From the NCBI GenBank assembly GCA_021804965.1, contig JAJZGG010000023.1:1-34754 (forward strand): a DNA stretch of 34,754 nucleotides. Reading direction: 5' to 3'. This document shows, in pieces, positions 7,998 to 20,624 of the stretch. This DNA is from Acidobacteriota bacterium (lineage in GTDB: Bacteria > Acidobacteriota > Terriglobia > Terriglobales > Acidobacteriaceae). The position numbers and the translations under genes are program-made. Position 1 is the first letter of the stretch. Every line of letters begins with the position of its first letter. A model generated the notes under the pieces. The model saw only the letters and a list, made by a program, of their open reading frames with translations. It was not told the DNA's origin and made no database searches.

Positions 7998-9608
7998 ATG
8001 ACAAAGACAGGCGCGACAACTCCAGAAGATCTCAGGCTGAACAATGCATATCTGAAATGTGAACAATGCCTGGGAGACCGGGTGATGGCCTGCGTGTCGT
8101 GGAGTCTTTTGGGGCTGGCCCTCTGCCTGGCACCGGTGCATCATACCTGGGGATTGGCCGTACTGGTCGGGATGCTGCTGGCGGGATCGCTGCAGGTGCT
8201 GGTGCTGACGCACCGAGGCGCGAGGCTGACCCGTGTCTGGAGTGCCGTGGTGTTCATGGCATTTGCGGCCCTGCTGATCCAGCAGATGCACGGAATGATC
8301 GAGATGCATTTTTCGATCTTTGTGCTGCTGGCATTTCTGTTGTTCTACAACGACTGGTTGCCGCTGGTGGTGGGTGCGGGCGTGATTGCGGTGCATCATC
8401 TGGTCTTTCATCTCCTGCAGCATGCAGGATTTCCCGTTTGGGTCTTCCCTACGATGTGCAGCATCCGGATGGTGTTTATCCATGCGGCGTTTGTGGTGTT
8501 TGAGACCGGCCTGCTGGTGTCGATGGCGGTGCAGCAGGAACGCGCCAAACTGGAAACCGGCGAGGTGATGACCATGCTGGACGCGATGCTGGCCGATCAC
8601 CAGGTGGATCTTCGCGTGAGGACGCATATCGAAAGCGGATCGGCAGGAAAGTTTGGCAGGTTTGTCGCATTTCTGCGGGAGCTGGTGCAAGGGATTGTGG
8701 GCAATGCGGAACGCATTGCCACAAGCGGAGACGGGATCACGGCATCTGCCGCGGCAGTGGCGCAGGCAAGCAGTGAGCAGAAGCAGCAGATTGAGCATGC
8801 GGTTGTGGCCATGCACGAGATGCAGAGTGCCATTTCCGAGATCAGCCGCAACAGCCAGCAGATGGCAGCAAACATGGGCCAGTTGCGCGATGGGGCGCAG
8901 AGCGGTGGTCAGGTGGTGTCGGCAACCATAGCTGCCATTGAGGATGCGGCGCAGACGGTGCGCGAATCGGCGTTGATGATGGAGGAGCTGGAGCGTGCAA
9001 GCCAGTCGATCGGGCAGATTGTGGCCACGATCAACGAGATTGCCGAACAGACCAATCTGCTGGCTCTGAATGCTTCGATTGAAGCGGCGCGAGCCGGTGA
9101 ATCCGGTCGTGGCTTTGCCGTGGTTGCCGGTGAAGTGCGGCGGCTGGCCGAGCGCACCTCAAAGGCAACGCACGAAATCGATGGAATGATCACGAGCATC
9201 CAGGGCAAAACCGGAGAGACGATTCAGACGATGCGATCCGGCAAGGAAAAGTTCAGTCGGACGGTGGAGACGGCACAGGAAGCCGGTGTGGCCATGCGGG
9301 AGATTCTGGAAACTGCCGAACAACAGAGCCAGATGGTGGAGCAGATTGCCGGAGCCTCCACCGAACAGAAGGCCGTAACCGATCGGGTGAGCGAGATTAT
9401 GCAGAAGATCGTTTCGATGGCCGAACAGTCATCTGCCGGAGCCGCAGAATCCGCCGAGGCCAGCGCAGGCCTGCAGACCCTGGCCGTGGAACTGCACCGC
9501 ATGCTGGGCCAGTTCCAGACGGATGGCGCAAGAGAAGAAGCACCAGCCTACATTGGCAGATCGGGAGCGACATCGAGGATGGGATCGGCCGTGCCGCAGT
9601 TCTCCTAG
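7998..9608 (+). CDS. Methyl-accepting chemotaxis protein with histidine-rich membrane sensor
   Basis: A 536-residue chemoreceptor. An upstream in-frame ATG exists at 7833, but ATG 7998 is preferred because GAGG lies at 7988-7991 and a sigma-28-like promoter ends at 7978. Residues about 29-178 hold roughly six hydrophobic helices with almost no periplasmic domain, so sensing probably happens within the membrane. Histidines are concentrated there: H98 and H104 in HGMIEMHF, then H133, H134, H138 and H142 around [11 protein letters not shown]. Residues about 240-510 are a long coiled-coil signalling domain with the conserved hairpin tip [20 protein letters not shown], which contacts CheA and CheW. 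No C-terminal CheR-binding pentapeptide was seen. No che genes are nearby, so it must work with an array encoded elsewhere. The stimulus is unknown. Confidence 0.88.
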
Positions 9609-9668: not shown

Positions 9669-10316
9669 ATGTGCAGCCGATTTCAAAGAGGCTCCGGAAC
9701 CAAGGCACTGGTCCATGCGTTTGCATCGGAGTTGCCAGCGGAGGCAATCGATGCGCTGGCCGTCGTCGATGACGGAAAGAGTGAGGCGGCGCCAGGCTCC
9801 GTTCAGCCGGTGGTGGTGAGCGACAGGGACGGTCGGCGCAAACTGCTGCCCATGCGCTGGGGATTTCGGCTGCCGGATCGCTTCCTGTTCAATACCCGAT
9901 CCGAAGGCGCGGAGAGTTCACGCTTCTGGAGGGATGCATTCCAACAGCGGCGCTGCCTGATTCCGGCAGATGCCTACTTTGAGTGGTCGCAGGGTGCTGA
10001 CGGCAGGACGAAGTATCTGCTGCAGGTTGAAGACGAAAAGCTCTTTGCGATGGCAGGACTCTGGTCATCGTGGGCGAACCCACAAAGCGGCAAACTGGAA
10101 GAAACATTCTCCATCCTGACATGCGAAGCTGCTGCCAACATCCGCCACATCCACGAGCGGCAGCCTGTGATACTGACGCCGGAAGAGTATGCGGCATACC
10201 TGACGCCGGAGATGCTCGAACCGATGCGACTGTTGCGTCAACGTCCGCGCCCCAGGCTGGTGGCGCGTGAAGCGGAGAAGCCCAGGCAGTATTCCCTCTT
10301 TGACGCAAAGAGCTGA
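9669..10316 (+). CDS. SRAP-domain (HMCES/YedK-like) DNA-protein crosslink protein
   Basis: A 215-residue SOS-response-associated peptidase fold. Family members bind abasic sites in single-stranded DNA and link covalently through the cysteine at position 2. The start at 9669 is fixed by this chemistry, because only this ATG leaves Cys2 (MCSRF) next to the initiator; the ribosome site is poor. Other conserved residues fall where expected: N75 in FNTRSEG, E105 in YFEW, and the catalytic His in IHERQPVIL (H162). PMRWGF and CLIPADAYFEW are further family motifs. The more usual H-x-R-M-P reads HERQP here, a mild variation. No lexA box was recognised, and the neighbours give no repair context. Confidence 0.92.
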   Translation: MCSRFQRGSGTKALVHAFASELPAEAIDALAVVDDGKSEAAPGSVQPVVVSDRDGRRKLLPMRWGFRLPDRFLFNTRSEGAESSRFWRDAFQQRRCLIPADAYFEWSQGADGRTKYLLQVEDEKLFAMAGLWSSWANPQSGKLEETFSILTCEAAANIRHIHERQPVILTPEEYAAYLTPEMLEPMRLLRQRPRPRLVAREAEKPRQYSLFDAKS

Positions 10317-10361
10317 GTGGCAGCGGTCGCAATCCGGCAAGAAAGAAATTCCATTTCAGGA

Positions 10362-10399
10362 TTGACTTTTTCTATTTGTACATTATACATATACAAATA
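10362..10399 (+). promoter_or_regulatory. Promoter and palindromic operator of the GntR operon
   Basis: TTGACT (10362-10367) and TATACA (10384-10389), spaced by 16 bases, form a plausible promoter. TATTTGTA (10373-10380) and TACAAATA (10392-10399) are perfect inverted half-sites 11 bases apart that straddle the -10. The predicted transcript start lies only a few bases before ATG 10403, which has no Shine-Dalgarno, so the message may be nearly leaderless. The geometry suggests autorepression by the encoded GntR protein. Confidence 0.6.
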
Positions 10400-10402
10400 A
10401 CA

Positions 10403-10795
10403 ATGAGACCCGAACCCAATCTCGTGATCGATCCTGCATCGCCTGTGCCGGTGTATCGGCAGGTTGTGGACAATCTTCGTTCCCTGCTGGTGGAGGGTGT
10501 GCTGCAGGCCGGGGATTCCCTGCCAACGGTGCGGGAACTGGGGATGGAGTTGGGTGTCCATTTCAACACCATTGCAGAGGCGTATCGACAACTGGCTGCC
10601 GAGGGCTGGCTTGAGTTGAAGCGAAGACGGGGTGCTGTCGTGATGGCGCGCTCGACGCCGGTGGAGCAGGCCGAAGTGGTCGAACAGTTCCAGCGCAATC
10701 TGCGGCAATTAGTGGCGCAGGGCAGAGCGGATGGCGTGTCCAACAAAACGATAACGCGGAAGTTGAAACAGATGATGGAGGAGTTGAGCGCATGA
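10403..10795 (+). CDS. GntR-family regulator, YtrA subfamily
   Basis: A 130-residue transcription factor starting MRPEPNLVIDPASPVPVYRQ. An in-frame TTG at 10376 would lengthen it by 9 residues but falls inside the palindromic operator and promoter, so ATG 10403 is preferred. The N-terminal winged helix is typical of GntR: LPTVRELGMELGVHFNTIAE, then YRQLAAEGWLELKRRRGAVV. The C-terminal part is only about 55 residues and helical, which marks the YtrA subfamily, whose members usually control adjacent membrane or ABC transporter genes. Its stop overlaps the next ATG by four bases (ATGA at 10792), so translation of the membrane protein is coupled. No ABC genes follow, unlike in classical ytr operons. 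Confidence 0.87.
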   Translation: MRPEPNLVIDPASPVPVYRQVVDNLRSLLVEGVLQAGDSLPTVRELGMELGVHFNTIAEAYRQLAAEGWLELKRRRGAVVMARSTPVEQAEVVEQFQRNLRQLVAQGRADGVSNKTITRKLKQMMEELSA

Positions 10796-11814
10796 GCAGC
10801 CCATGGCATTGGGGGATGGATCTGGGAGCGGTGGCAACCTATGGCGCGGTGGCAGGACTGAATGCCTACACTTCGCGCATGAATGCATTCTTCTTCTTTT
10901 CCAAGACGGTTCCGGAAGAGTTTCGTTCGACGGACGAAGCGCGAACGATTGAACGGAGATACAGGCAGGAGTTGCTGTGGGCCTTTGCGGTTGCGGTGGG
11001 ATTGTATCTGCTGCTGAAAATGGCCAGCCCATTCTCCTGGCTGCTGTGTTTGTGCGCGGGGATCATGGCGCAGACACTGGCAGCTTCCGTTGCCTTCGCT
11101 CGCGCAAACGGACAGGTGGGGCATGCGCTGCGCAGGATGACCAACGACAGTGAGTCGCTGGTGACGCAGCCAGTGAGCATACCGTTGCTGGAACAGCGCT
11201 CGACTGCGAAACACTCCGTGCTATGGATTCTGCTGGCTCCTGTTGCTGGACTGCTGGGAGTGTATGTTGCCTTTGCAGGCTCACACATGGGGTTGGGTGA
11301 GTTTCTGCAGGCGATGAGTCAGTCCCGTGCGGATGGCATGCTGGGATTGGGCGTCGGAATGGAGTTTGGCGCCATTCTGCTGTTTCTACAGTTGAAGTAT
11401 TTTTCCCGCTCGCGATCGGAGATGGGCCGGTTTACGCTGGAAGGCGCGAGATGGGTGGTCTGGCTTGGCGCACTGGCTGCCATCCTGAGCGCAACCACCG
11501 TTCCACTGCACTGGATGGTGACTTCGCAGATACGCATCGGCGTGCTTTGCGCTCTGTTGGCCGTGATTGCGACCCGCATACTCTACGCGTATGCACGTTC
11601 AAGCCGATTTGCTCCGCCGGCTGCCGAACGCGGAGGCGATGCATTCTGGCGATGGGGAATGTTCTATTACAACCCCACGGACCCGTCTGTTTTTATTCAG
11701 CATCGCTGTGGCCCAGGATACACCTTGAACTTTGCGCGGGCTGTTTCCTGGGTATTAGCGCTGGCATTACTGGCGGATCTTGGATTTGTACTCTGCCGGC
11801 ACCTGTGGAGGTGA
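10792..11814 (+). CDS. Multi-pass membrane protein with DUF5808-like C-terminus
   Basis: A 340-residue integral membrane protein of unknown function. About six to seven hydrophobic segments are visible, at roughly residues 60-80, 82-102, 143-163, 185-205, 222-242, 246-266 and 315-335. Between the last two, WGMFYYNPTDPSVFIQ followed by GYTLNFA matches the short DUF5808 motif found at the ends of some bacterial membrane proteins of the SdpI/DUF1648 environment. The N-terminal half was not recognised. The ribosome site GGAGG lies just upstream, inside the gntR gene, and the two frames overlap by four bases. Co-regulation by the YtrA-type protein suggests a role in envelope stress or antimicrobial response, by analogy with ytr operons only. 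Confidence 0.75.
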   Translation: MSSPWHWGMDLGAVATYGAVAGLNAYTSRMNAFFFFSKTVPEEFRSTDEARTIERRYRQELLWAFAVAVGLYLLLKMASPFSWLLCLCAGIMAQTLAASVAFARANGQVGHALRRMTNDSESLVTQPVSIPLLEQRSTAKHSVLWILLAPVAGLLGVYVAFAGSHMGLGEFLQAMSQSRADGMLGLGVGMEFGAILLFLQLKYFSRSRSEMGRFTLEGARWVVWLGALAAILSATTVPLHWMVTSQIRIGVLCALLAVIATRILYAYARSSRFAPPAAERGGDAFWRWGMFYYNPTDPSVFIQHRCGPGYTLNFARAVSWVLALALLADLGFVLCRHLWR

Positions 11815-11819
11815 AAGTC

Positions 11820-12086
11820 ATGTGTCTATGGAACAGGAGAACAACGGAGGAAGGTCCGGAAGCAGCGAGAGTGCGGCGGCGCGGGGCTGCGCTGGCAAGC
11901 ATGAGCGCTTCTCTTGCCGGGGTCTGGGCCATGGCCAGTACAGAGCATATGCACCGGCAACATTGGGTGATGGGGATTCTGCTTGGAGTCCAGATTGTGC
12001 TGCTGGTGAGCGCTCTGATATCGCTGCGACAGGCGAATCTGGCCAGGGAAAATAACCATACGGAAAATAGCGACGGAGTCATCTGA
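11820..12086 (+). CDS. Small membrane protein, unknown function
   Basis: An 88-residue protein. The start is well supported: GGAGG at 11807-11811 overlaps the upstream stop codon and lies 8 bases before the ATG. Residues 1-21 are strongly charged and basic, 23-40 are weakly hydrophobic, and 50-69 form a clear transmembrane helix followed by a polar tail. It is the third and last gene of the gntR operon. I do not recognise a family; it could be a small partner of the preceding DUF5808-like protein. Confidence 0.65.
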   Translation: MCLWNRRTTEEGPEAARVRRRGAALASMSASLAGVWAMASTEHMHRQHWVMGILLGVQIVLLVSALISLRQANLARENNHTENSDGVI

Positions 12087-12508
12087 ACGAGACGATGGGG
12101 ATTTCAGTTTGCCAACCAGAACCGGGGAAACTGTGCTGTTTGCTGTACGGTTGAGCTGCGGAATCATGCGATGGGAATGTCCATCCGATGGACACTTTGC
12201 AACTCCAATGGATTCCTTCTCAGAGATAGAACAGATGCCAGCCAACCGGTTTGATTGCGGTATTCCTGACAATACCTGCTGGCCTGAATGCCGGCTTCGC
12301 GCTTTGGTGTAGCGGTATTCTCATTCCCTGTCCTGCTTTGGACACCGCAGTGTCCACACCCGAAAAATGCACCCATGATATCCATAGGCGTACGCACGAA
12401 ATGGTGCGCCGGAATCGTCCACTTTGGACTTTTACGCACACGGAATCATCGTGAATGGCTGAAGATATTCAGAATTTTGCGGTGTGAGGGAATGCGGGGA
12501 AGTGAGGA
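12087..12508. other. Non-coding region with three GTCCA-core palindromes
   Basis: No convincing gene is seen in these 422 bases; short open frames have no ribosome sites or recognisable products. The notable content is three inverted repeats sharing a GTCCA/TGGAC core: TGTCCAT-CCG-ATGGACA (12178-12194), TGGACAC-CGCA-GTGTCCA (12339-12356) and GTCCA-CTT-TGGAC (12417-12429). The last is followed by TTTT and could terminate transcription. Confidence 0.45.
12417..12433 (+). terminator. Possible short terminator hairpin
   Basis: GTCCA (12417-12421) pairs with TGGAC (12425-12429) around a CTT loop and is followed by a short T-run. The stem is only 5 bp and the hairpin is over 300 bases after the last gene, so confidence is low. 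Confidence 0.3.
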
Positions 12509-12530
12509 ATTGGCTGCCCCCAGGGATTCG
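12509..12530 (+). repeat. Duplicated tRNA-Gln 3' end (putative att site, distal copy)
   Basis: These 22 bases repeat 17255-17277, the 3' part of the tRNA-Gln gene plus two flanking bases, in the same orientation. The only difference is one C fewer in the C-run (5 versus 6). No tRNA can be completed here, so this is a fragment. A complete tRNA at one end and a copy of its 3' end at the other is the classic footprint of tyrosine-integrase insertion. Confidence 0.75.
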
Positions 12531-13114
12531 TATACGTTGATTTTTACTGCAGCTTACCTCAATCTCTCGTCGTCATACCCTCTTCGATACCCCACCACAT
12601 GGTTGGCTTCGCTCGGGCGAAATCGGACCGCAACAAACGTCCTCATCCCTAGATGAACGCCAACACTTGAAATGAGACACTGACGTGCGCAGTGGGAATC
12701 GCGTGCTTCTGGCGCAAAACCTCGTCTTCAGGATCTACCTGAAATCTGCCCCGACATCATTCAGGATGAACGAGTGACGCGCTTCCTCCGTCTCTCCTGA
12801 TGAGTGTCCGAGATAGCGACTCTAAGGAGTTGAGCTTCGGCTACTGAGCTCTGTGACAATCGATGCCCTCTGCGCGAAAAAAGTCTCTCAGTCTCCCTGC
12901 TCCCAGCTCTTTGCGATGTGTAATACTGCATCCTGCACAACCTTATGATTTTAAAGTGCATCATATTTCCTGGCTCAACTGGACAATCCAATCAAGGCCA
13001 TCTTGAACCCCATTTCATGACTTTAGCCAAAAGTGTAGGAAGCGATGTGTCGGAGACCCAGTAGCCGGGGATCCCTGAGAGCGTCGGATATAGCACAGCC
13101 TAAGGAGTGTGAAG
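12531..13114. other. Apparently non-coding stretch inside the island
   Basis: About 580 bases with no supported gene. Open frames on both strands are short and lack ribosome sites and recognisable motifs. A minor palindrome TTCAGG-N5-CCTGAA lies at 12727-12743. The part around 12930-13030 is visibly richer in A and T than its surroundings and probably holds the promoter of the signalling genes, but no clear -35/-10 pair was found. Confidence 0.4.
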
Positions 13115-14113
13115 ATGCGTGCCACGGTGCTTGTTGTTGACGACGAGCTCAGTCAACGAGAACTTCTGACCGAGCTGCTCGAACTCGAAGGGCATGAAGT
13201 TTTTTCCGCAGGCGACGCTCTTCGGGCCAGCCAGATGATCGGCTCGCAGCCGCCGGATATCATCCTCCTCGATGTCAATCTGCCCTACAAGAATGGCCTT
13301 GAGCTTTGCCGCGAACTGAAAGCTCAGGAGGAGTTATGTCTGATCCCCGTGATTATGGTCACTGGGATGACCGAGGCGCAGGACCGGATTCGCGGCATCG
13401 AGGTCGGTGCGGACGATTTTCTCACCAAGCCAGTTGACCGCTTCGAACTGATTGCCCGGGTCCGTTCTTTGCTCAAGCGCAAGGAATACACGGACGAACT
13501 GGACCGTGCCGACAACGTTCTGATGGCATTGGGAAGCAGTATCGAGGCCAAGGACCCCTACACCGAAGGCCACTGCATGCGCATCGCCCTATACTCGCAG
13601 GAGCTGGGGCGCGCGATTGGCCTGCCGCGCGAAGACTTGCGCGCCCTGCGCATCGCCGGCTGCGTTCACGACATCGGGAAGATCGGCGTCCCCGACGCCA
13701 TCCTCCTCAAGAAGGGGCCGCTCACAGCCGCGGAGTGGGACATTATGCGCTCCCACACGCTCATCGGCGAGCGTATCTGCCGTCCGCTGCGCTCCTTCCA
13801 GCCGGTTCTGCCCATCATCCGCAACCACCACGAAAAGCAGGATGGAAGCGGTTATCCCGACGGCCTGCGCGGCAGCGAAGTCCCGCTGCTGGCGCGCGTC
13901 ATGCAGATCGCCGATATCTTTGATGCACTCACGACCGAGCGACCCTACAAGGCGGCGCTCAGCCTCGATGCCGCACTACAACAGATGCAGGTTGAGGTGG
14001 ATCGCAGCTGGTGGGATCCGACGCTGTTTTCGATCTTTTCCGAAATTGCCCACCTGGAGGGTTTGCCGCGTGTCGACCTGGCAGAGTTCAAAAATGATCA
14101 AGACCATGAGTGA
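13115..14113 (+). CDS. Response regulator with HD-GYP domain (probable c-di-GMP phosphodiesterase)
   Basis: A 332-residue cytoplasmic protein. ATG 13115 is chosen because AAGGAG (13102-13107) lies 7 bases upstream; the in-frame GTG at 13109 is too close. Residues 3-120 are a receiver domain with acidic pocket DDE, phospho-acceptor D53 (LLDVNLP) and the conserved Lys in TKP. Residues about 150-310 are an HD-GYP domain with H185-D186 in HDIGKIG, HHEKQDGSGYP with G246-Y247-P248, and the IADIFDALTT motif. Such proteins hydrolyse cyclic di-GMP under phosphorylation control, affecting motility and biofilm. It overlaps the downstream hybrid kinase gene by about 20 bases, so that kinase is the obvious partner. 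Confidence 0.92.
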   Translation: MRATVLVVDDELSQRELLTELLELEGHEVFSAGDALRASQMIGSQPPDIILLDVNLPYKNGLELCRELKAQEELCLIPVIMVTGMTEAQDRIRGIEVGADDFLTKPVDRFELIARVRSLLKRKEYTDELDRADNVLMALGSSIEAKDPYTEGHCMRIALYSQELGRAIGLPREDLRALRIAGCVHDIGKIGVPDAILLKKGPLTAAEWDIMRSHTLIGERICRPLRSFQPVLPIIRNHHEKQDGSGYPDGLRGSEVPLLARVMQIADIFDALTTERPYKAALSLDAALQQMQVEVDRSWWDPTLFSIFSEIAHLEGLPRVDLAEFKNDQDHE

Positions 14114-16349
14114 CCAGGTTGGCGGCACTGCCCACCCGGAACGCAACATCGGCATCGGAGCCATACTTGCCTTTGCGATCGTCGGGGCCGTCATGATCAC
14201 GGCAGTACACGGCATCGCGCGCATGGTCAACGATGCGAGATGGGTGGAACATACCCAGCAGGTCATCAATGTAATCAATCAGATCGATGGCCAGATTACG
14301 CGCCGGGAGGTTGCGTTGCGCAACTTCCAGCTCACCGGCTCCCCCGCGGCCCTGGCGCGGTTCCAAAACCTGGCGCAGGATGTGAATGAGACGCTGCGTC
14401 AACTGCAAAGGCTCACCGTCGACAATCCCAGCGAGCAGGATCGGGTTCGCCAATTCGACGATGTGCTGCGCCAGCGGGAGATGCAGATCTCGTCCAGCGC
14501 GGACCTGGCGGCCGCCCTCGAGCAGGCCCGCCGTCTTCCCCCGGTTCTGAGCGATCCTTTTCCGAAGAGGGTAGACGATGTGCTCAGCAGCATGCGCCTG
14601 GAAGAGATGCGCCTGCTGGTCATCCGGCGCACCGCGCAAATCAACGGTGTACATTTTACTTACGCCACGCTGATCGCTCTCGGCATTCTGCTGATGGGCC
14701 TGCTGGTAGGCACTTACGCGATCTCCCGGAACGCGCTCGTGGCCCGCCAACTAGCGCTGGAAAAGAGAGATCATCTCAACGCCGAGCTCGAAAAGGCCAA
14801 CGCCGCTCTCGAACTGAAAAGCGCCGAAGCCGACCATGCGAACAAACTCAAAAGCCAGTTCCTGGCCAGCATGAGCCACGAGTTGCGCACCCCCTTAAAT
14901 GCCATCAGCGGGTTCTCCGAGCTGCTCGCCGAACAGCTTGCCGGACCGCTCACCAACAAGCAGAAGCGCTTTCTTACCCACATTCGCGAAGCCTCGGCGC
15001 ACCTGCTGCAGCTGATCAACGACATTCTCGATCTTTCCAAGATTGAAGCCGGAGAGGTGCGGCTTGAGCTGACACCCATGACGGCGGCGCCGGTGGTGGA
15101 GGAGGTGATCGCGGGGCTGAGCGCAATTGCCCAGAACAAGGCGATCGCGATCCATTCCCAATGCCCTGCCGCATTTGTAGTGCAGGCCGATCGCCGGCGC
15201 TTGAAACAGATGCTCTATAACTTGTTGAGCAATGCGCTCAAGTTCACGCCCGAGAATGGGCGCATCGACGTAACTGTCGAACAACGAGAGGGCGGGTGCC
15301 TGTTCGAGGTGGCAGACACGGGACCGGGAATTGCAGAGGCTGACCAACAGATCATCTTTGAAGAGTTTCGCCAGGCGGCAGCACCCGCAAACGGGGTGAA
15401 AGAAGGAACCGGCCTGGGCCTCTCGATCACCAGGAAGCTCGTCGAGCGCCACGGGGGATACATGGAGCTCGAAAGCAAGTCGGGCGAGGGAAGCCGCTTC
15501 CGGTTCTGGCTTCCCGGCGCTATCTCGGAGAGGCACCGCGCCGCCACCGAGGCGAACCAGCCTCAACCTGTTCTTGCAAGCTACAGCCACCGGTCTTCGC
15601 CGCTCATCCTTGTGGTCGACGATGATGAGAACGCCTGCGAGCTCATCAAGAACGTTCTCGAGAGCGCCGGCTACGCCGTGGCGACGTCCAACTCCAGCGC
15701 CGGCGCCCTGCAGGCAATGCGCGAGCTCAAACCAGATCTCATCACCCTCGATCTGCTCATGCCGGGTTGCAATGGGTTCGGCACCCTTTACGAGTTAAAA
15801 GCAGCCCACAAGGATAGCCTGCCGCCGGTCGTCATCGTCTCCGTGGTCGACGACAAGGCGACGGGGTTTGCCCTGGGAGCTGCGGACTATCTGCTCAAAC
15901 CAGTCAGCCGGGACAACCTGCTCAACGCTGTCCACAAATATCTGCCCTCGGCCAGTGCTTCGGTCTTGGTCGTGGACGACGATCCCGCCGTGCTTGAGAT
16001 CGCCAGAGAGGTGTTCTCCCAGCCATCGCTTACCCTTCACCTGGCCGCCACAGGCAGAGAGGGGCTCGATATCCTTCTGACCTGTCCCGTCGACGTTATC
16101 GTGCTCGACCTGATCATGCCCGGGATGGATGGGTTCGAGTTTCTCACTGCGCTTCGCCAGCACGATCGCTTGAGCAGCATTCCCGTGGCGGTTCTGACGT
16201 CGAAGGATTTGAGCAAAAGTGAGCTGGAAAGTCTTAGAAGCAGGGTGCGTTCGGTGTTTCATAAGCACGACGACTGGCGCCCCGGTCTTGTGCTCGAAGT
16301 CGAGCGCATCCTCGGTCGTAACTTGCAGAAAGGAGCTTCGACATCATGA
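14094..16349 (+). CDS. Hybrid sensor histidine kinase with CHASE3-like sensor and two receiver domains
   Basis: About 751 residues from ATG 14094; ATG 14106 is an alternative start. Both overlap the end of the HD-GYP gene, showing translational coupling. A transmembrane helix (about 22-42) and a second one (about 185-207) enclose a mainly helical periplasmic domain resembling CHASE3 (LRNFQLTGSPAALARFQNL). A coiled coil leads to HisKA with phospho-acceptor H262 in SHELRTPLNA, then an HATPase with NALKFTPE, DTGPGI and GTGLGLSI boxes (about 375-480). Two receiver domains follow: REC1 with D553 (LDLLMPG) and REC2 with D672 (LDLIMPG). There is no Hpt domain, so the phosphorelay probably uses separate proteins, including the neighbouring regulators. 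The signal is unknown. Confidence 0.9.
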   Translation: MIKTMSDQVGGTAHPERNIGIGAILAFAIVGAVMITAVHGIARMVNDARWVEHTQQVINVINQIDGQITRREVALRNFQLTGSPAALARFQNLAQDVNETLRQLQRLTVDNPSEQDRVRQFDDVLRQREMQISSSADLAAALEQARRLPPVLSDPFPKRVDDVLSSMRLEEMRLLVIRRTAQINGVHFTYATLIALGILLMGLLVGTYAISRNALVARQLALEKRDHLNAELEKANAALELKSAEADHANKLKSQFLASMSHELRTPLNAISGFSELLAEQLAGPLTNKQKRFLTHIREASAHLLQLINDILDLSKIEAGEVRLELTPMTAAPVVEEVIAGLSAIAQNKAIAIHSQCPAAFVVQADRRRLKQMLYNLLSNALKFTPENGRIDVTVEQREGGCLFEVADTGPGIAEADQQIIFEEFRQAAAPANGVKEGTGLGLSITRKLVERHGGYMELESKSGEGSRFRFWLPGAISERHRAATEANQPQPVLASYSHRSSPLILVVDDDENACELIKNVLESAGYAVATSNSSAGALQAMRELKPDLITLDLLMPGCNGFGTLYELKAAHKDSLPPVVIVSVVDDKATGFALGAADYLLKPVSRDNLLNAVHKYLPSASASVLVVDDDPAVLEIAREVFSQPSLTLHLAATGREGLDILLTCPVDVIVLDLIMPGMDGFEFLTALRQHDRLSSIPVAVLTSKDLSKSELESLRSRVRSVFHKHDDWRPGLVLEVERILGRNLQKGASTS

Positions 16350-16705
16350 AGACCGTGCTGGTGGCAGAGGACAACGCGGTCAATCGGGAACTGGTTACGG
16401 AGATGCTGGAAATGCTGGGCTATGGTGTCCTTGAGGCGCGCGATGGCCAGGAGGCGCTGGAGCAGCTCGCTGCGCAGTTGCCTGACGTGGTGCTTCTCGA
16501 TCTGCAGATGCCCCGAATCGATGGTCGCGAAACCATCCGCCGCATTCGCGATAATCCTGCCTGGAGACATTTGCCGGTGATCGCCTGCACGGCATTTGCC
16601 ATGCAGGGCGACCGGGAAGAGATCCTGAACCTGAGTTTTGACGGGTATATCTCCAAGCCGGTCTCCTTCGCCGAGTTGATGGCGGTACTGCAACATGTGA
16701 TCTGA
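16346..16705 (+). CDS. Single-domain response regulator (DivK/CheY-like)
   Basis: A 119-residue stand-alone receiver. All pocket residues are present: E8-D9 (VAEDN), phospho-acceptor D52 (LLDLQMP), T82 in ACTAFAM and K104 (ISKP). The CTAFAMQGDR stretch is typical of DivK-like regulators. Its ATG overlaps the kinase stop by four bases (ATGA), and AAAGGAG lies about 10 bases upstream, so the three signalling genes form one coupled operon. With no output domain, it probably acts by protein contact or as a phosphate shuttle for the hybrid kinase. Confidence 0.9.
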   Translation: MKTVLVAEDNAVNRELVTEMLEMLGYGVLEARDGQEALEQLAAQLPDVVLLDLQMPRIDGRETIRRIRDNPAWRHLPVIACTAFAMQGDREEILNLSFDGYISKPVSFAELMAVLQHVI

Positions 16706-16771
16706 CCGCTTTGCTGCCTCTATGCCCCGTGGCGGCCTATTCCTGCAATCCTGTGCCGGTTACAATGCAAT

Positions 16772-17117
16772 GGGTTCTTCCTCGCTTTTGGTGAAGGGAG
16801 GTCCAGTACTTCATGTTGGTGCGGGATGATGTTCAAGCGGCATGAACGACGCGCAGGCGCAGCAGGTCGAAGTTGGCGCGGCCGTACATGGAGCGCTTAA
16901 TGAGCTTTAGCCGATGAACATTTCCTTCTAACGGGCCGTTGCTCCAGGGTTGTTGCATGGCGGCCAGCAACGCAACCTCGTCGCGGAAACTGGACACCCG
17001 TCGATGTGCATTGGGAACAATATCCGCAAGCCTTGAATTCGCGGAGTCGATATCCCCAAGACTACACCCAGAAATAGAAGGCTTCCAGACAACCATCGAA
17101 GACATCGTTTGGCGCAA
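16772..17117 (-). mobile_element. Remnant of an ISL3-type insertion sequence
   Basis: The transposase fragment below and about 60 bases after its stop appear to be the end of an insertion sequence. The stretch from 16772 (GGGTTCTTCC on the plus strand) resembles terminal inverted repeats of the ISL3 family, which begin GG-x-TCTT. No matching opposite end was found, so the left part of the element is lost. Confidence 0.45.
16833..17117 (-). pseudogene. ISL3-family transposase, C-terminal fragment
   Basis: About 94 codons remain of a protein normally around 400 residues or more. The last 70 residues are clearly transposase: WSNGPLEGNVHRLK contains the final catalytic Glu region of the DDE domain, followed by KRSMYGRANFDLLRLRV, a hallmark ending of ISL3-family (COG3464-like) transposases. 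Upstream residues lose similarity, and stops appear before any start-proximal domain. The fragment cannot be active. It lies within the putative island, about 140 bases from the tRNA 3' end, and may mark an event that removed the island integrase. Confidence 0.75.
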
Positions 17118-17254
17118 ATTGTGATGAGATCAGTGCTTTACCAGAGGAATGGGCGTTCTATCGTGCTGCTCCAATCACTTTTGGGAGCATTTTGGCTGCT
17201 ACACGGCATTCAAATTTGATACTGTAAGCTATTAATACTAAATTACTTAAGAAC

Positions 17255-17277
17255 ATTGGCTGCCCCCCAGGGATTCG
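17255..17277 (+). repeat. tRNA-Gln 3' end, putative att site (tRNA-proximal copy)
   Basis: This copy comprises the 3' part of the intact tRNA-Gln gene plus two flanking bases. It matches 12509-12530 at 22 of 23 positions, in direct orientation. It would be the insertion target of the integrase that brought in the island. Confidence 0.7.
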
Positions 17278-17330
17278 AACCCCGATAGACTGCTCCAGAG
17301 GCAGTTGTCCTACCATTGAACGAGAGGGCA
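17257..17330 (-). tRNA. tRNA-Gln (anticodon CTG)
   Basis: A complete 74-base cloverleaf read on the minus strand. The acceptor stem TGCCCTC pairs with GGGGGCA, followed by discriminator G and an encoded CCA. The D arm is GTTC/GGAC, the anticodon stem is ACTGC/GCAGT with loop CTCTGGA (anticodon CTG, reading CAG), the variable loop is CTAT, and the T arm is CGGGG/CCCTG with loop TTCGAAT. All stems close, with a few G-U pairs. It is the chromosomal anchor of the putative island. Confidence 0.95.
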
Positions 17331-17349
17331 GTATTCTGTTGACTTCCCC

Positions 17350-17379
17350 ATCATACTGGGAAGGTCGCGGTGCGGTCAA
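17350..17379 (-). promoter_or_regulatory. Promoter of tRNA-Gln
   Basis: On the minus strand TTGACC (17379-17374) and TATGAT (17355-17350) are separated by 18 bases, each a 5/6 match to the sigma-70 consensus. The predicted start lies about 13 bases before the mature tRNA, as expected for a tRNA gene. Confidence 0.7.
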
Positions 17380-17642
17380 CGGCTGGCATTGCGGAGTTGG
17401 GCCTGAATCCAAACGCAAGGAACTGCGGCCGTTGTTTGGGGCCGGATGGAAGATGCGAGGGCTGCAGCGAGCCGGAGACACAGTCCAGCGGAGCCTGCTC
17501 GAACGCTTCACTCCGCCCTGGATTTGCAATTGCGAAAACAGTCTGGAGCTGTCTGTCATTCCTATGGTTTGCTTATGGAAAACTTATCTGCGACATGGGA
17601 AGTTAAGGATACGAAATTCAATCTCAGGTAGAATCAGGGGAA

Positions 17643-18038
17643 ATGATGGAACTGATGCTCAATCTGGTGTGGGCAACCACGGCGCTGGCGATGCTGGTGG
17701 CGTGGCTGCGCATGCCAAGACATGAGCATGCCAGTCGGACGCGACAGATTCTGTGCCTGGGGATTGCGCTGCTTCTGCTGCTGCCGGTGATCTCGCTGAG
17801 CGATGATCTGGTGGCTGCGCAGACGACGACCGAAATGGACGGCTGTGTGCGACGTGCGCACGAGGCACACGCGCATCCGCCGCATCTCTGCACAGCGTCC
17901 TGTACGCAGGCGGCCACTGCGCCGTTCGCATTTGAGCTCCCGAGTCGTTGGGAGTTCCTGCCATTGCCGCAGGAATTCCGCTCCGCGCACTCGGCTTCCG
18001 TTCAGTTGCCTTTCAGCAGACCGCCGCCGGCGGCCTGA
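17643..18038 (+). CDS. Small membrane protein with Cys/His-rich periplasmic tail
   Basis: A 131-residue protein with no recognised family. ATG 17643 and 17646 both follow AGGGGAA closely; the second has better spacing. Hydrophobic helices at about 6-22 and 36-53 flank a basic, His-containing loop (RMPRHEHASRTR), so the positive-inside rule puts the tail outside the cytoplasmic membrane. That tail contains C68, H73, H76, H78, H81, C83 and C87 in about 20 residues, a plausible metal-binding patch, and ends in a Pro-rich stretch. It immediately precedes, by 76 bases and on the same strand, the genes of a metal RND efflux pump, so a role as periplasmic metal binder or accessory factor is an attractive inference. 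Base composition matches its neighbours. Confidence 0.65.
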   Translation: MMELMLNLVWATTALAMLVAWLRMPRHEHASRTRQILCLGIALLLLLPVISLSDDLVAAQTTTEMDGCVRRAHEAHAHPPHLCTASCTQAATAPFAFELPSRWEFLPLPQEFRSAHSASVQLPFSRPPPAA

Positions 18039-18114
18039 TCCTTCGCGCAAAACTTTATTTCATTCTTTCTGCATTCCTATCCGGCCGCTTTGTTGCGCGG
18101 CGAAGAAGGCGTAC

Positions 18115-19449
18115 ATGAAACGATCCCTGCATGTATGGGGCGTTTGTGGCGTACTGGGGGTTGCGATTCTGGCAATTCCTGGCGATGCGCAGACGACTGC
18201 CCCCAAAAGTTCCGCAGATGCAACCGCACCGAACAGCACACGGCAGACGATGACGTGGGAGCAGGTGAAGGCGCGGTTTGAGACTGCCAATCCCACGCTG
18301 AAGGCCGATGCCTTGAACGTGGATGAGATGAAGGCGAACGAGATTACGGCCAATCTGCGACCGAATCCCACGCTTTCCTTCACCGAGGATCAGACCTATC
18401 CCTTTGCGCCGCACATTGATCCCAACACCAACACGACCAACTATCGTCCGCTGACCGATGCACTGACCACAGGCTCCATCAGCTATCTGCACGAGCGGCA
18501 GCACAAGCGGGAGTTGCGACTGGAAAGCGCGAAGGAAGGGACGCGGATTGCCGGCTCCCTGCATGAGGACCTGCAGCGCAACCTGATGTACAACCTGCGT
18601 GTGGCGTTTGTGCAGACGCTGGAGGCCAAGGCGGTTCTGGATCTGGCGCATGCCGATCTGGACTACTACGACCACATCATTGCCATCAGCAAGGCGCGCT
18701 TCCAGGCGGGCGATCTGGCGCAGATTGATCTGGACCGGATTGAGCTGCTTCGCGTGCAATACGAAAGCGAGATTGAAGCGGCGACGGTGAACCTGCGATC
18801 ACAGAAGATTGCCCTGCTGCAGATGCTGGATGACCGCACGCCGGTGGATCGGTTTGACGTGACGGGGGCGTTTGATTTTGCGGATTCGATGCTGCCCTTG
18901 AATGATTGTGAGCAGTCTGCACTGCAGGCCAGACCGGATCTGGCAGCGGCGCTGCAATCCGTATTGCAGGCCAGGACAAACTACAAACTGGCAAAAGCAA
19001 ATGGCACGGCCGACCCGACGTTTGCCGTCGATTCGGGAGCCAATCCTCCGCTTCCAACCTATGTGGGCGTGAACATCAATATTCCGATTCGCATCTTTGA
19101 CCGCAATCAGGGAGAGAAGCAGCGCACGCAGATCGACATTGCTCGCAATCAGCAATTGACCGAGGCGGCACGCGCACAGGTCTTCAGCGATGTGGACAGT
19201 GCCTACGAACAGGTGCGCAGCGCACTGACCCTGCTGAAGCCCTATCGCAACCAGTATCGCGGACAGGCCACGCGGGTGCGCGATACGGTGACCTATGCCT
19301 ATCAGCATGGCGGAGCTTCGCTGATGGATTTTCTGAATGCGCAGAGTGATTATCGTGCCGTGCAACTGGCCTATCTGCAACTGGTTGGAACGTATTTGAC
19401 AGCAACGGCGCAGCTCAACCTGGCCGTGGGACGCGAGGTGATTCCTTGA
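18115..19449 (+). CDS. Outer membrane factor of metal RND efflux system (CzcC/TolC-like)
   Basis: A 444-residue exported protein. The open frame extends upstream, but ATG 18115 is chosen because it begins a clean signal peptide (MKRSLHVWGV to GDAQ) and has GAAGAAGG about 6 bases upstream. It carries the two-fold repeated helical pattern of outer membrane efflux proteins: LRPNPTLSFTEDQ, then long coiled helices, RFQAGDLAQIDLDRIELLRVQ, LQARPDLAAALQSV in the second half, and YQHGGASLMDFLNAQ near the end. These proteins form a trimeric channel joined to the adaptor and pump. No lipobox is present. The adaptor gene overlaps its stop codon, so the operon is tightly coupled. Confidence 0.88.
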   Translation: MKRSLHVWGVCGVLGVAILAIPGDAQTTAPKSSADATAPNSTRQTMTWEQVKARFETANPTLKADALNVDEMKANEITANLRPNPTLSFTEDQTYPFAPHIDPNTNTTNYRPLTDALTTGSISYLHERQHKRELRLESAKEGTRIAGSLHEDLQRNLMYNLRVAFVQTLEAKAVLDLAHADLDYYDHIIAISKARFQAGDLAQIDLDRIELLRVQYESEIEAATVNLRSQKIALLQMLDDRTPVDRFDVTGAFDFADSMLPLNDCEQSALQARPDLAAALQSVLQARTNYKLAKANGTADPTFAVDSGANPPLPTYVGVNINIPIRIFDRNQGEKQRTQIDIARNQQLTEAARAQVFSDVDSAYEQVRSALTLLKPYRNQYRGQATRVRDTVTYAYQHGGASLMDFLNAQSDYRAVQLAYLQLVGTYLTATAQLNLAVGREVIP

Positions 19450-20624
19450 AGCAAATTCTGACAAACTTCCGCAATCATGCGTGGGCACCCACGATCACAG
19501 TGACCCTGGCCTGCATGGCTTGTACCACAAGTCTTCTGCTGAATGGATGCAAGAGTGCTCCCAGCAAAAGCGCTGCCACCGGACCGCAGAAGGTGATCCA
19601 TCTTTCCGACATGAATCTGATTACGGTGGATCCCCATAAGGCAGATTTGTTTCCGCTGGCGGAGTCGCAGCCTTACATGACACCCGCGCTGCTGAATGCC
19701 ACGGGAACGGTGATGCCGGATGTCTCTCGCACAGTTCCGGTCATTTCTCTGGTAAGCGGTCGGGTGGTGCAGATCGGTGCGCATCTGGATGACACGGTGA
19801 CCAAAGGTCAGCTGATGATGCGTCTGCAAAGCCCGGATGCAACCGCTGCGCTGGATGCGTATCGACGTGCCGTGAACGACGAGTTGCTGACGCGCAGGAC
19901 ACTGGATCGAACCCAGCAGCTCTATGACCACGGAGCAGCGGCGAAGTCCGCACTGGAACAGGCACAAAATGGGGAACAGGATGCGCAATCGGTTCTGACT
20001 GCGGCGCAGGAACAACTGAAGACGCTGGGACTGGATGCCAGGCACCCGAGTGACATCGTCTCAGTCTATGCACCGGTAAGTGGCGTGGTGATTGCACAGA
20101 ATGTGACCAACGCCGCAGCGGCAGGTGTGACCTATGCCGGATCGGCAACGGCCTTTACAATTGCCGATCTTTCCACGGTGTGGGTGCTCTGCGATGTGTA
20201 TGAGAATCAACTTGCTGATCTCAAGCTGGGACAGGCTGCCACGATCCATTTCAATGCCTATCCGGATCGTACGCTGAGTGGAAAGATTGATGATATTGGT
20301 CCGGTTCTGGACCCCAGCATCCGGACAGCCAAGGTGCGGGTGGTTGTGCGCAATCCCGGCTATCTCCGGCTGGGCATGTTTGCGACGGCAACCTTTCGCA
20401 GCCTGCATCCGCGCACGTATACCGAGGTTCCAGCCAATGCCATTCTACATCTGCATGATCGTGCCTGGGTGTTTGTTCCGGCAGGTCCTGCGCAGTTTCG
20501 TCGCGTGGAGGTGCAGGCCGGCGACATGCTGCCTGGAGGCCAGCAGGAGATCACCGATGGCCTGACTCCAGGAACGAAAGTGGTGAGCAATGCGCTCTCA
20601 CTGGAAAGTGCGGTGAGCGAATAA
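19446..20624 (+). CDS. RND efflux periplasmic adaptor, probable lipoprotein (CzcB-like)
   Basis: A 392-residue membrane fusion protein. It starts with TTG at 19446, overlapping the upstream TGA; a GAGGTGA ribosome site a few bases upstream supports this non-ATG start. The N-terminus has a hydrophobic segment ending LLLNGC, so C35 is probably lipidated and anchors the protein to the inner membrane. The lipoyl-like half motifs VSGRVVQIGAHLDDTVTKGQ and VYAPVSGVVIAQNV flank a helical hairpin (about 135-200), followed by the beta-barrel STVWVLCDVYENQLADLKLGQ and a membrane-proximal domain. No His-rich metal-binding N-terminus was seen. It links the outer membrane channel to the pump. Confidence 0.88.
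   Translation: MKQILTNFRNHAWAPTITVTLACMACTTSLLLNGCKSAPSKSAATGPQKVIHLSDMNLITVDPHKADLFPLAESQPYMTPALLNATGTVMPDVSRTVPVISLVSGRVVQIGAHLDDTVTKGQLMMRLQSPDATAALDAYRRAVNDELLTRRTLDRTQQLYDHGAAAKSALEQAQNGEQDAQSVLTAAQEQLKTLGLDARHPSDIVSVYAPVSGVVIAQNVTNAAAAGVTYAGSATAFTIADLSTVWVLCDVYENQLADLKLGQAATIHFNAYPDRTLSGKIDDIGPVLDPSIRTAKVRVVVRNPGYLRLGMFATATFRSLHPRTYTEVPANAILHLHDRAWVFVPAGPAQFRRVEVQAGDMLPGGQQEITDGLTPGTKVVSNALSLESAVSE

Follow-up and report, generated by a model that had tools for sequence, protein, structure and literature searches.

A signalling operon between two copies of a tRNA-Gln 3' end

The window, that is, the whole stretch of 34,754 nucleotides that was analysed, is one entire contig (C138) of a genome assembly of 2.97 Mb in 141 contigs that is 87.5% complete. 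The only tRNA gene found in it by ARAGORN is an intact tRNA-Gln(CTG). A second copy of the 3' end of this gene is present, and a three-gene operon lies between the two copies (Table 1). All three frames are open and each gene overlaps the next. The REC-HD-GYP protein matched Pfam HD_5 (1.1e-37) and Response_reg (3.7e-28); its HD and GYP motifs are intact behind the receiver, and the translation contains HHEKQDGSGYP, which we take to be the HD-GYP motif. No DNA-binding output domain was detected by Pfam in the three operon proteins. The kinase is predicted to sense via CHASE3 and to pass phosphate to its own receivers, to the lone receiver and to the REC domain of the phosphodiesterase. The predicted output of this phosphorelay would be lower c-di-GMP.

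Table 1. Features of the island and its boundaries (positions in the window).
Feature	Position	Strand	Evidence
Outer left flank, like sequence 3' of tRNA-Gln in some relatives	12488..12510		alignments, shuffles
Left att copy, displaced tRNA-Gln 3' end minus one C	12511..12530	-	sequence match
Left margin without recognisable gene or integrase relic (GC 0.507)	12531..13114		Pfam/PHROGs/tblastn
REC-HD-GYP response regulator, c-di-GMP phosphodiesterase domain, 332 aa	13115..14113	+	Pfam Response_reg, HD_5, HD
Hybrid sensor kinase: CHASE3, HisKA, HATPase_c, two receivers, 750 aa	14097..16349	+	Pfam
Single-domain receiver, 119 aa	16346..16705	+	Pfam Response_reg
ISL3 transposase relic, C-terminal part only	16833..17129	-	Pfam DDE_Tnp_ISL3 positions 191-240 of 240
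tRNA-proximal island end, ~53 nt like G010 tRNA-Gln 3' flank	17130..17256		shuffle test
Intact tRNA-Gln(CTG); 17257-17277 = right att copy	17257..17330	-	ARAGORN

A sequence-only reading of this DNA had placed a c-di-GMP/two-component operon, a non-coding stretch and an ISL3 transposase fragment between the repeats, and Pfam bore this out with an HD-GYP protein, a hybrid kinase, a receiver and a C-terminal ISL3 fragment. The ISL3 relic has partial matches in congeners and in plasmids, with an ISL3 piece in 33 plasmid records. In a set of 61 genomes including its own, the right margin matched only ISL3-like pieces, in six other genomes, and the left margin had no counterpart beyond itself.

The left copy reads TGGCTGCCCCCAGGGATTCG and the right copy TGGCTGCCCCCCAGGGATTCG, in the same orientation. 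The left copy matches 20 of the 21 terminal bases of tRNA-Gln(CTG) and has one C fewer than the right copy; with the preceding AT on each side, 22 of 23 bases are common to both. Sequence and ARAGORN thus agree with the near-complete duplication, with one full tRNA at the right end, that had been described from the sequence. Nor is the repeat scattered: the pattern, with the extra base optional, occurs in the incomplete genome at these two sites only. Allowing up to two errors, the 21-mer gave two matches in the window versus none in 40 first-order random windows.

All 38 tRNAs of the genome were surveyed for such repeats (blastn-short, E 0.05, one strand, up to 10 kb per side where the contig permits). 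Same-orientation repeats of at least 15 nt consisting mainly of tRNA 3' bases were found at three of them, Gln-CTG, Pro-GGG and Ser-CGA. Tyr-GTA and Pro-CGG gave upstream matches of 16-17 nt (94%) that are almost entirely tRNA-downstream sequence. At tRNA-Pro(GGG), on contig C16, a 37-nt sequence comprising the tRNA 3' end and adjoining flank occurs twice, with 172 bp between the copies and a match of 95% (9195-9231 and 9367-9403 of the stretch L157), possibly the scar of a nearly wholly deleted island. At tRNA-Ser(CGA) there is a 15-nt repeat (100%) and a 41-nt repeat (93%), with ~9.7 kb between the copies (~9944-19813 of the segment C64:13300-33290) and two Phage_integrase genes in the interval; the genome of the window probably has here an island that carries integrases. 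A further Phage_integrase match (C132:102919-103733) lies ~200 bp downstream of tRNA-Asn(GTT) and points toward it; no displaced copy of this tRNA was found in the stretch examined.

The codon choice of the operon had been said to look different from that of its flanks. The pooled operon does deviate from them (excess KL 0.051, z 12.6), but a deviation of this size is also seen in 2 of the 13 flanking genes (g10792, 0.069; g30206, 0.052), and the GC content of the operon, 0.601, is like that of the flanks, 0.602 and 0.599. One ORF (64-1521) was left out of the second codon run, its base pattern suggesting a wrong frame. Only the gene-poor margins of the island are low in GC (0.507 and 0.512). 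Codon usage was rejected as proof of foreign origin; such proof is weak and the bias only mildly unusual.

The empty site and the polarity of the junctions

In the closest relative, G004, one contig of 3,045 bases matches the window at 10251-12047 (81%) and at 17255-18344 (81%). Homologues of both window flanks lie there 400 bp apart, with a single intact tRNA-Gln between them; from the end of the neighbour-gene match to the tRNA is 400 bp in G004 versus 5,445 bp in the window. The stretches examined from 14 congeners (less than 1 kb on the left side in G012 and G002) contained no further copy of the tRNA 3' end. The operon was absent next to tRNA-Gln in 13 congeners by tblastn and in G004 by blastn. 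Four of these loci (G005, G001, G011 and G003) gave tblastn matches to receiver, kinase or HD domains, at no more than 44% identity and kilobases away. The outer-membrane efflux gene of the right side lies near the tRNA at 11 of the 13 fetched loci, and also in G004 by DNA homology. Because the site is empty in G004, and the stretches examined from 14 congeners have neither a second copy nor the operon, the 4.7 kb are an insertion. The absence of the island from relatives, named beforehand as the check to make, was thus found, and conserved synteny of the signalling genes at this tRNA, named as what would speak against an island, was not seen in the congeners examined.

The sequence-only reading had further expected 12087-12508 to lie directly next to the tRNA in relatives. 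This holds for roughly the last 20 bases, which are alike; 12048-12497 is unmatched in G004. Between the end of the homology with G004 and the tRNA-like flank lie ~440 bp (12048-12487), versus roughly 160 bp in G004, and nothing in that genome matches them.

The flanks of the two copies were compared with tRNA-downstream sequence of congeners. Left flank and core together align with G014 over 44 nt (91%), with G006 over 41 nt (85%) and with G004 over 34 nt (88%). The 23 bases of the outer left flank, without the core, are similar to what lies 3' of the tRNA in G014, a likeness reached in 0 of 500 and 2 of 1000 mononucleotide shuffles; the support from G004, G013, G008 and G006 is weak taken singly. 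The inner flank of the right copy showed no likeness to tRNA-downstream sequence of G014, G004, G013, G008 or G006. The likeness found there, in one of 20 comparisons, was to another congener, G010: ~53 nt of the inner right end align with its tRNA-Gln 3' flank at score 44, a likeness reached in 0 of 1000 mononucleotide shuffles. Unanchored blastn at E 0.01 did not list this match. Inspected by eye, the G010 flank has the look of an old element end, and the operon is not at tRNA-Gln in that genome. From these likenesses it follows that the left copy is the displaced original end and that the right end arrived with the island. The right end perhaps derives from an element type that touched G010 too.

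Integrases at tRNA-Gln and relatives of the operon

Between the two copies no integrase or recognisable relic of one was found by Pfam (10 stop-to-stop margin frames), PHROGs (six) or tblastn, as the sequence had suggested. The frames scanned were chosen from 59 listed, of at least 30 aa, many of them in neighbouring genes. In tblastn against the island, eight integrases of the same genome gave a best E of 0.54, and the integrase of the viral contig L169 (IMG/VR IMGVR_UViG_3300015241_000015) gave a best E of 0.028, within the tRNA-derived stretch itself. This last integrase is a 477-aa Phage_integrase ORF at 2614-4047 of L169. In its 3' part, 31 nt from the 3' end of tRNA-Gln are translated as protein, and no tRNA gene was found in the 14.6 kb of L169 examined. 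This is how an attP should look, and the tRNA-derived stretch would be an attP-like site within the integrase gene.

Relatives of the L169 integrase (E 1e-55 or better) were found in 15 of 398 genomes of the family, at 17 loci. Eleven of these loci have a tRNA beside the integrase, within ~1.5-kb flanks: seven Met, three Gln(CTG) and one Lys. The three genomes with this Phage_integrase clade beside tRNA-Gln(CTG) are G028, G035 and G470, and a displaced copy was found in G028 only. No integrase of the clade was detected, at E 1e-55 or 1e-60, in 15 genomes of the host's genus. The integrases of G028 and G035 directly adjoin tRNA-Gln, on the side that the ISL3 relic occupies in the window. Judged by these sequence comparisons, tRNA-Gln(CTG) is an integrase target in this family.

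The G028 locus (L177, 756-6429), from another genus of the same family, is a 5.6-kb island with both tRNA copies. It is like the window island in the tRNA used, in its similar size, in its displaced 3' copy and in carrying c-di-GMP-linked PilZ and receiver proteins. It differs in its recombinase genes, four ORFs that match Phage_integrase (the tRNA-adjacent one only partially), in an HTH_17 gene, in its other cargo proteins and in the length of its repeat, 46 nt at 97.8%. The G035 locus has an integrase, an IS21-type ATPase, a resolvase and five ORFs without a family at tRNA-Gln; no displaced copy was found up to the contig end ~8.1 kb past the tRNA, and no signalling family was detected in the 8 of 11 ORFs of at least 150 aa that were scanned. 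The parallel between G028 and the window rests on two cases and is suggestive. That tRNA-Gln(CTG) might be a docking site for very small c-di-GMP/receiver islands, through which control of sessility would be exchanged as a minimal mobile module, is an idea we hold to be doubtful, and it is weakened because G035 showed no signalling gene.

The REC-HD-GYP, hybrid kinase and receiver genes occur in the same order in two other genomes, G006, of the same genus (53, 39 and 39% identity), and G025 (55, 45 and 54%). These operons have the same three genes and differ from that of the window in sequence (39-55% identity). They lie on contig C92 of G006, 5.4 kb from a tRNA-Ser, and on contig C20 of G025, in a stretch with no tRNA; G051 has the first two genes only. 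Among 399 genomes of the class the best relative of the HD-GYP protein has 60% identity, and the nearest homologues (55-60%) are mostly in other families of the class. The best relatives of the kinase are in G032, at 44% over almost the full length, and in G025, at 49% over the final two thirds. No match to the HisKA-HATPase core longer than 110 aa was listed in the 1.5-kb flanks of 19 non-self HD-GYP loci; therefore HD-GYP proteins of this type do not generally come with the three-gene order. Among 84,980 named species, a narrow peptide-pattern scan gave eight loci with kinase relatives, with best segments of at most 39%, one of them labelled Acidobacteriaceae. In plasmid records, the kinase core has relatives at ~39-40% that span two thirds of the protein, among the 10 examined of 137 matches, and DNA matches cover at most 9% of the island among the 10 examined of 143; four records carry short pieces at 90-95% identity.

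The island DNA had no match in 50,697 phage records, and IMG/VR, scanned with a narrow peptide pattern, yielded nothing related to the HD-GYP protein. A prophage or phage satellite was rejected, there being no phage DNA match and PHROGs on six margin frames giving only a transposase.

To judge by its relatives, the cargo is a divergent form of an operon that the genus and family are known to have. The sequence-only reading had considered a signalling-only cargo on so small an element unusual. It is less so, because other members of the genus and family have operons of this type and a second small tRNA-Gln island, that of G028, carries PilZ and receiver genes.

Origin and significance of the island

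We think it likely that the locus is a small island that was targeted to tRNA-Gln(CTG) by a tyrosine integrase and that later lost its integrase while the cargo stayed intact. The earlier proposal of tRNA-directed insertion is strengthened by the empty site in G004, the lack of conserved synteny and the confinement of the repeat to two sites. The likeness of the outer left flank to tRNA-downstream sequence, the integrases next to tRNA-Gln(CTG) in the family, contig L169 and the G028 island also speak for it. A tyrosine integrase would have inserted the island at the 3' end of tRNA-Gln(CTG). The element's own tRNA 3' end would have restored the gene and is now the right copy; the original 3' end, displaced by 4.7 kb, would be the left copy, later worn by one base. 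As no remnant was recognised inside, we infer the former presence of an integrase gene. Because the integrase of G028 and G035 occupies the same side of the tRNA, the gene was most likely lost by deletion where the ISL3 relic now sits, and the island is now probably stuck. Its kinase would phosphorylate the phosphodiesterase and the lone receiver and so turn an outside signal into lower c-di-GMP. That the three reading frames are open although the island is worn suggests that the cargo has been retained. Four observations count against this explanation, namely the lack of a recognised integrase remnant, the length of the core (20-23 nt in the window versus 46 nt in G028), the absence of detected integrases of the clade from the 15 genomes of the genus at the thresholds given above, and the G010-like inner right end, which would also fit transfer by homologous recombination.

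The lack of a recognised relic would also suit an island that never had an integrase, a non-autonomous element, its att sites derived from the tRNA, that another element's integrase moved in trans, and the host does have tRNA-linked integrases elsewhere (at tRNA-Asn on C132 and tRNA-Ser on C64). We regard this as unlikely: a second copy of the left margin was not found in the 61 genomes and the right margin recurs only as ISL3-like pieces, the left att copy is worn, and the ISL3 relic sits where cousins keep their integrase. The resemblance of the ~53 nt to the G010 flank, with the score and the one-in-20 standing given above, is what speaks for capture independent of any integrase, in which a donor fragment would have recombined in tRNA-Gln by homology and its other end been joined by microhomology at the 3' tRNA bases. 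However, the junction falls exactly at the duplicated tRNA 3' end, the usual mark of an integrase, tRNA-Gln hosts integrase genes in the family, and G010 lacks the operon there and has a flank that resembles an old element end; such a capture is unlikely. An assembly artefact, with the contig falsely joining the operon to the tRNA neighbourhood, comes to mind with an incomplete genome in 141 contigs. It would require two wrong joins made independently of each other, each at a tRNA 3' end, both flanks match the G004 locus on the correct sides, and tRNA-downstream-like sequence continues outside the left repeat, so that we consider it extremely improbable.

The island insertion at tRNA-Gln is a genuine and fairly ordinary decayed tRNA island without an integrase, of a known kind. 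As described in PMC4383910, tDNA islands of the Islander class share with it the direct repeat of a tRNA 3' end in the proper orientation, the intact tRNA at one end and the empty site in a relative. According to the same paper the Islander class requires an integrase gene, which the window island is without, and Islander sizes peak at 13.6 and 39.9 kbp, so that an island of 4.7 kb is far under these peaks. The c-di-GMP enzymes of the Vibrio VPII island and of SXT/R391 elements that we cite from PMC10672970 are diguanylate cyclases. Like these, the window island is a case of mobile c-di-GMP turnover; it differs in carrying a phosphodiesterase with its own kinase.

With its empty site, the locus is a well-bounded case of an island persisting without an integrase. 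It also shows a complete sensor-to-output c-di-GMP module moving as a single unit. Island finders that depend on an integrase would miss it. Together, the tRNA-Gln site, the integrase clade and the viral contig L169 make a tractable system in this family.
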